Positions 63,083 to 63,219 of a stretch of DNA of 64,000 nt are shown here, in pieces. Source of the stretch: Sandaracinus sp. (GTDB lineage Bacteria > Myxococcota_A > Polyangia > Polyangiales > Houyiibacteriaceae); contig PABA01000154.1 of assembly GCA_002699025.1 (NCBI GenBank), positions 1 through 64,000 on the forward strand, in the 5' to 3' direction. The notes beneath the pieces were generated by a model, which made no database searches, had not been told where the DNA came from, and worked only from the letters and a program-made list of their open reading frames with translations. Position 1 is the first letter of the stretch; each line of letters starts with the position of its first letter. Made by a program: the position numbers and the translations under genes.

Positions 63083-63219
63083 TCCGCGCGAGTCGAGGAA
63101 GCTGGAGAGAAGACTCTCGTGGATGCCATTTCACCATGCGTGGTGTGAGCACGCAGCGGGACTCGAACCCGCAAGGTCTCGCGACCAAGAGTGTGTAGGC
63201 TTCCCGCGTGAGGGCGCGG
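63083..63219 (-). ncRNA. Circularly permuted tRNA-like RNA with a 5-nt capped acceptor stem (element 1)
   Basis: Minus-strand order: R region ending GGGAAGCCTACACAC (63191-63205), an anticodon-like arm TCTTG..CGAGA (identity unclear), T arm GCGGG-TTCGAGT-CCCGC, acceptor 3' strand TGCGTGC, 5-nt loop TCACA and acceptor 5' strand CCACGCA (6 of 7 pairs). The D arm GGTG-AAATGG-CATC follows, then a GAGAG-TCTT-CTCTC hairpin and L motif GCTTCCTCGACTCGCGCG (63085-63102). The GGAAGC/GCTTCC ends close the molecule. Confidence 0.72.

Follow-up and report, generated by a model that had tools for sequence, protein, structure and literature searches.

The closest described counterparts of the system reported here are YrlA, the bacterial Y RNA (RF02553), and its partner Rsr. 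The Rfam consensus of YrlA runs from a stem through a T arm, a capped acceptor and a D arm back to the stem, an order also given in PMC8394870. In Salmonella, a Ro60 relative and a tRNA-like RNA share one operon, the RNA repair operon rsr-yrlBA-rtcBA (PMC7790460); that paper suggests that the YrlA head might competitively inhibit an anticodon nuclease. Circularly permuted tRNA genes, in which the order of the tRNA halves is swapped (PMC3978253), and the inducible long tRNA array of Anabaena, which remains silent until translation comes under attack (PMC10272220), offer further comparisons. The main Y RNA papers lay outside the reach of our literature search, which found no paper on the system itself.

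The window analysed here is a stretch of 64,000 nucleotides from Sandaracinus sp. (contig PABA01000154.1). At least five RNA units carrying a common frame stem (A to E; a sixth, F, is doubtful) lie between a small ORF ending in Gly and the gene of a 486-aa protein, and a PWM scan placed the 5' strand of the frame at 63219, 63013, 62846, 62757 and 62541. The locus is laid out as follows:

63264..63464, minus strand: 66-aa ORF ending RPEAVYG, upstream of the array, with a C-terminal Gly
63084..63219, minus strand: unit A, a permuted tRNA-like RNA within the frame stem (sequence, frame PWM and folding)
62936..63076, minus strand: unit B, tRNA-like, Asn anticodon GTT, open acceptor GGGATCG/CGATCCC (7/7)
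62764..62909, minus strand: unit C, tRNA-like, CAT in the anticodon loop (by eye), open acceptor followed by CCCA
62586..62757, minus strand: unit D, permuted, with a long capped acceptor CCGCCCG/CGGGCGG
62430..62541, minus strand: unit E, the frame around three hairpins
62265..62380, minus strand: unit F, partial or degenerate, with an anticodon-arm-like hairpin, Thr (CGT)
60741..62201, minus strand: 486-aa Ro60-fold protein (helical ring plus VWA, MIDAS DKSAS)
58117..58950, minus strand: conserved ORF without a family ('g4'), with an invariant Cys near its C-terminus
57163..57945, minus strand: ThiF/E1-like adenylation enzyme (ThiF E 4.3e-29)

The initial annotation had correctly given the sequence of unit A and its position at 63083-63219; the RNA lies on the minus strand and runs from 63219 to 63084. 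At 136 nt, it falls within the 90-150 nt set for YrlA or bacterial Y RNAs, and its parts, from the 5' end, are:

63191..63219, minus strand: frame 5' strand CCGCGCCCTCAC..GGAAGC plus CTACACAC (PWM score 34.8)
63177..63190, minus strand: distorted anticodon-like arm (folding and sequence)
63156..63172, minus strand: T arm GCGGG-TTCGAGT-CCCGC (pair probability 0.975-0.98)
63137..63155, minus strand: acceptor-like stem TGCGTG/CACGCA with the 7-nt loop CTCACAC (folding and sequence)
63122..63135, minus strand: D-arm-like GGTG/CATC (sequence; absent from the MFE)
63105..63118, minus strand: extra hairpin GAGAG-TCTT-CTCTC (folding and sequence)
63084..63102, minus strand: frame 3' strand GCTTCCTCGACTCGCGCGG (PWM and sequence)

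Read 5' to 3', unit A thus consists of CCGCGC, GGAAGC and CTACACAC, then the anticodon-like arm, the T arm, the acceptor-like stem, the D-arm-like stretch and the hairpin, and finally GCTTCC and GACTCGCGCGG. This order of stem, T arm, capped acceptor, D arm and stem is that of the Rfam YrlA consensus. The folding energy is low (z = -2.55), and the prediction is firm for the frame and the T arm but not for the acceptor. Pair probabilities are 0.948-1.0 for the 6-bp outer stem CCGCGC/GCGCGG and 0.971-0.997 for the inner stem GGAAGC/GCTTCC, and just 0.27-0.33 for the acceptor in unconstrained folding; imposing the acceptor makes the fold 0.4 kcal/mol less stable (-53.5 vs -53.9). The T arm described in the initial annotation as intact and the anticodon-like arm described as distorted (TCTT/GAGA with a 6-nt loop) both hold. 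The acceptor had been drawn as TGCGTGC/CCACGCA closed by a TCACA pentaloop; its seventh pair is C-C, so that the stem has 6 bp and the loop is the 7-nt CTCACAC. The D arm, also called intact, has the sequence claimed for it, but it is weak, containing one G-U pair and missing from the MFE. When the halves of unit A were joined in tRNA order, the best isotype was tRNA-Gly, at 27.3 against a shuffled maximum of 22.0, so the unit is tRNA-like and its isotype unclear. CTCACAC could also be read as a Val (CAC) anticodon loop, which we regard as a curiosity at most, because about 1 loop in 8 would have U33 and a purine at 37 by chance. Unit A does not have the layout of a tRNA gene, with an open acceptor and a 7-nt anticodon loop in order, and ARAGORN found no tRNA in the window.

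As judged from sequence, units A and D are permuted, whereas B and C are not and appear to have open tRNA ends. Units B and C are the same object as the permuted units with the circle cut elsewhere, the frame being a hairpin between the D stem and the anticodon arm. In unit B the frame is inserted between the D and anticodon arms; unit C, which also has the frame inserted, scores 51.8 bits against the Rfam tRNA model with an 81-nt insert. In the window, one of the regex pairs combines the 5' strand of B with the 3' strand of C; as the acceptors of B and C (7/7 in C also) each pair within themselves, we took them as two open tRNAs. Units A and B lie just 7 nt apart, so RNase P cutting at B could also form the 3' end of A, although this is a guess. 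Two hairpins of unit E resemble anticodon arms, Phe (GAA) and Gln (CTG). The PWM scan detected no frame in unit F, and no rRNA mimic was found in units A to F.

The frame is not a chance repeat, which its recurrence and two controls rule out. A strict regex matched three times in the window and never in 20 shuffled windows; in the 9.2-Mb genome, four of five pattern matches fall in the array, and the reversed pattern gave none. Among 75 loci encoding relatives of the Ro60-like protein, a regex found framed units in 53; it gave 139 units altogether, three of them in the window. A PWM trained on 136 regex units from these loci and scanned over the same loci (859 kb) gave 235 frame 5' sites on the coding strand and none on the other; for frame 3' sites the two counts were 219 and 10. 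The sites were paired into 201 units. The outer stem covaries among relatives: 356 of 366 cells are paired over 61 distinct strand pairs, compared with a mean of 292.6 and a maximum of 306 in 500 shuffles.

The permuted head can also be followed in relatives. Of 76 units labelled as permuted, those with loops over 12 nt were mostly non-permuted, and 56 were retained, with L047 removed by hand and at least two rows (L034 GTATAAA and L041) apparently misfiled. Their 39 distinct acceptor stems pair in 270 of 273 cells (98-132 when slid), a figure that is partly circular since the units were picked for at least six acceptor pairs; nonetheless, the stems differ. Acceptor loops span 3-12 nt in the retained units, and 5-nt loops occur in 2 of the 76. 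The tRNA-like head in permuted order is clear in relatives; in unit A the T arm is clear, the acceptor pairs at 6 of 7 positions and the D arm is weak. Elsewhere in the set, one I-type unit in L001 was assigned by eye and one unit of L038 was judged to be two neighbouring units. Framed units of 141 nt (L022:5796-5937, without a 23S match) and of about 70 nt (for example L006:2987-3056) stand just before the Ro60-like gene and are possibly a leader that regulates it.

The gene for the 486-aa protein lies 0.9 kb downstream of unit A on the same strand. Pfam detected VWA alone, with no TROVE match in the protein or in the genome, and vWA_Ro60 was matched by 5 of the 34 members of the family alignment. 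The family profile, however, found human Ro60 in the PDB (E 2e-6). A predicted model (pLDDT 89.9) matched Ro60 in Foldseek (E 6.9e-12), and a VIA alignment of this model with Ro60 covered 437 residues (Z 22.8, rmsd 3.9), compared with Z of at most 14.2 for VWA-only rows. On this model, the protein appears to be a divergent Ro60 relative over its whole length, with a helical ring and a VWA domain.

The other neighbours set the locus apart from the Salmonella operon, as the genes adjoining the array are the Gly-ended small ORF and the E1-like gene. The C-terminal Gly of the 66-aa ORF is invariant in 31 aligned sequences and is seen together with the E1-like enzyme; judging by these features, the ORF may encode a ubiquitin-like modifier. 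Its best PDB profile match, L23 (E 0.0094), is no more than a weak lead, and Pfam, NCBIfam and PHROGs gave weak or chance matches at most. The invariant Cys of g4 sits in a G-x-C-L context; no fold matched g4 at E<=0.001, and searches of Pfam, NCBIfam, PADLOC, PHROGs and PDB profiles yielded at most weak or chance matches. Complete ORFs at E<=1e-6 were found for the small protein in 49, for g4 in 42 and for ThiF in 30 of the 75 loci. An ORF at 55919-56611 (minus strand) has weak viperin-type matches and by eye looks QueE-like; QueE is a tRNA-modification enzyme.

Compared with YrlA, the locus differs in its multi-unit array, its differing heads, its open-acceptor neighbours and the anticodon arms kept in many units. 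Anticodon-arm-like hairpins occur in 60 of the 201 units, compared with 4 after shuffling. Framed units of some relatives hold the universal sarcin-ricin (SRL) 12-mer together with GTPase-centre (GAC) sequence, and others hold H70. The SRL 12-mer is present in 20 of the 75 loci (17 within framed units), the GAC motif in 17 (15 framed) and the H70 motif in 9 (all framed). No scan-paired unit contains three of the SRL and two of the GAC matches (L024, L025, L031). The GAC piece is identical to its own 23S rRNA at 54 of 68-69 positions, and one GTPase-centre stretch in L024 exceeds the Rfam LSU cut-off. Units that copy 23S rRNA can be seen at L006:5485-5685, L022:10278-10476 and L016:4292-4470 (sarcin-ricin loop with GTPase centre; H70). 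Six of the 75 loci (L022, L026, L029, L036, L037 and L050) have at least nine ARAGORN tRNAs beside the system and can be likened to the Anabaena array; the tRNAs there are ordinary, whereas the framed units are not. The genome of the window also holds a 32-tRNA array elsewhere (L091, G000 C214:52300-60100), without frames and with several low scores.

The 75 loci span several phyla, including Cyanobacteria, Myxococcota and Chloroflexi. Of 240 genomes in the class to which the window genome belongs, 4 encode the protein, whose distribution is thus patchy; it also occurs on five viral contigs and in one phage record. Relatives of the Ro60-like gene on phage or viral contigs are those of L114 (LR756511.1), which has two frame 5' strands, and L117-L121.

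Unit A is very probably a YrlA-like bacterial Y RNA. It shares with YrlA the stem of its 5' and 3' ends, ACUUG in the 3' strand of that stem, the T arm and an adjoining Ro60-fold gene, and it has a putative loop-capped acceptor and a weak counterpart of the D arm. The Rfam YrlA model (cut-off 69 bits) gave no match to unit A and 35.1 bits for a composite of B and C; although layout, neighbour and stem fit, the cut-off is missed, and we therefore name the RNA YrlA-like rather than a member of RF02553. The proposal of the initial annotation, that such units are stable Y RNAs and not tRNA precursors, is supported by the Ro60-fold gene downstream, the YrlA order, the covarying frame and the permuted acceptors of relatives, which also show compensatory changes. 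Cleavage at TCACA to free a mature tRNA could appeal to the intact T arm and to permuted acceptor loops that in some relatives start with GCCA, like N73-CCA. We nevertheless rejected this as very improbable: the frame would stay between the D and anticodon arms, as it does not in circularly permuted tRNA genes, the anticodon arm of unit A is distorted, and the genome has an ordinary tRNA set, Asn, Met and Val included. Likewise, the partial unit F and the acceptor mismatch of unit A might suggest a functionless, decayed tRNA array, but the frame covaries across relatives of several phyla and gene order is conserved, and an inert remnant is scarcely credible.

The RNA of unit A is probably a stable decoy, sensor or tether. 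Overall, the array is likely to be one of YrlA-like Y RNAs on a Ro60-fold RNP, with the heads as candidate baits; this explanation builds on sequence, frame covariation, permutation, gene neighbourhood and the Ro60 fold of the predicted model, and from these we infer expression, binding, bait function and Ubl conjugation. Unit A would carry a circularly permuted tRNA-like head on a basal stem built from its own 5' and 3' ends. The Ro60-like protein would most likely bind the conserved stem (CCYNAC opposite NACUYG) to give a stable RNP, and the RNA would not be matured into tRNA. The heads would then most likely serve as baits, each unit showing another tRNA or, in relatives, pieces of 23S rRNA; enzymes or toxins attacking the translation machinery would bind or cut them, and the Ro60-like protein, the E1-like enzyme and the Gly-ended small protein would act on the event, perhaps through Ubl conjugation. 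We tentatively prefer a decoy or sensor of translation damage, given how wide a range of targets is displayed, how patchily the system is distributed and that an E1-like gene lies nearby. The main rival is a RYPER-like tether, in which the heads would dock PNPase or other tRNA-binding enzymes on the Ro60-like ring and steer the decay of structured RNA, many heads serving many partners. The head-and-stem layout and the Ro60 fold are alike, and tethering has been described for YrlA and Rsr (PMC8394870). However, a PNPase tether needs one head type, and the heads here copy several tRNAs, those of relatives 23S sites; we consider a tether rather unlikely. Nothing in this analysis ties the locus directly to toxin or phage attack, and it is doubtful, if conceivable, that the bait system is a multi-phylum immune or stress RNP, a Ro60-fold ring with tRNA and 23S (sarcin-ricin loop, GTPase centre and H70) baits in which toxins hitting the panel trigger Ubl conjugation.

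In summary, the surroundings of unit A exceed those of known YrlA RNAs, with the frame in open tRNAs (B and C), 23S sites in relatives and an E1-like gene. A permuted tRNA mimic is thereby linked to an unnamed Ro60-fold family that has its own multi-unit RNA array and E1-like gene. If the heads are indeed baits, these cells would display their own most attacked RNA sites, and a comparison of the different heads of a single genome would put the role of bacterial Y RNA heads to the test.
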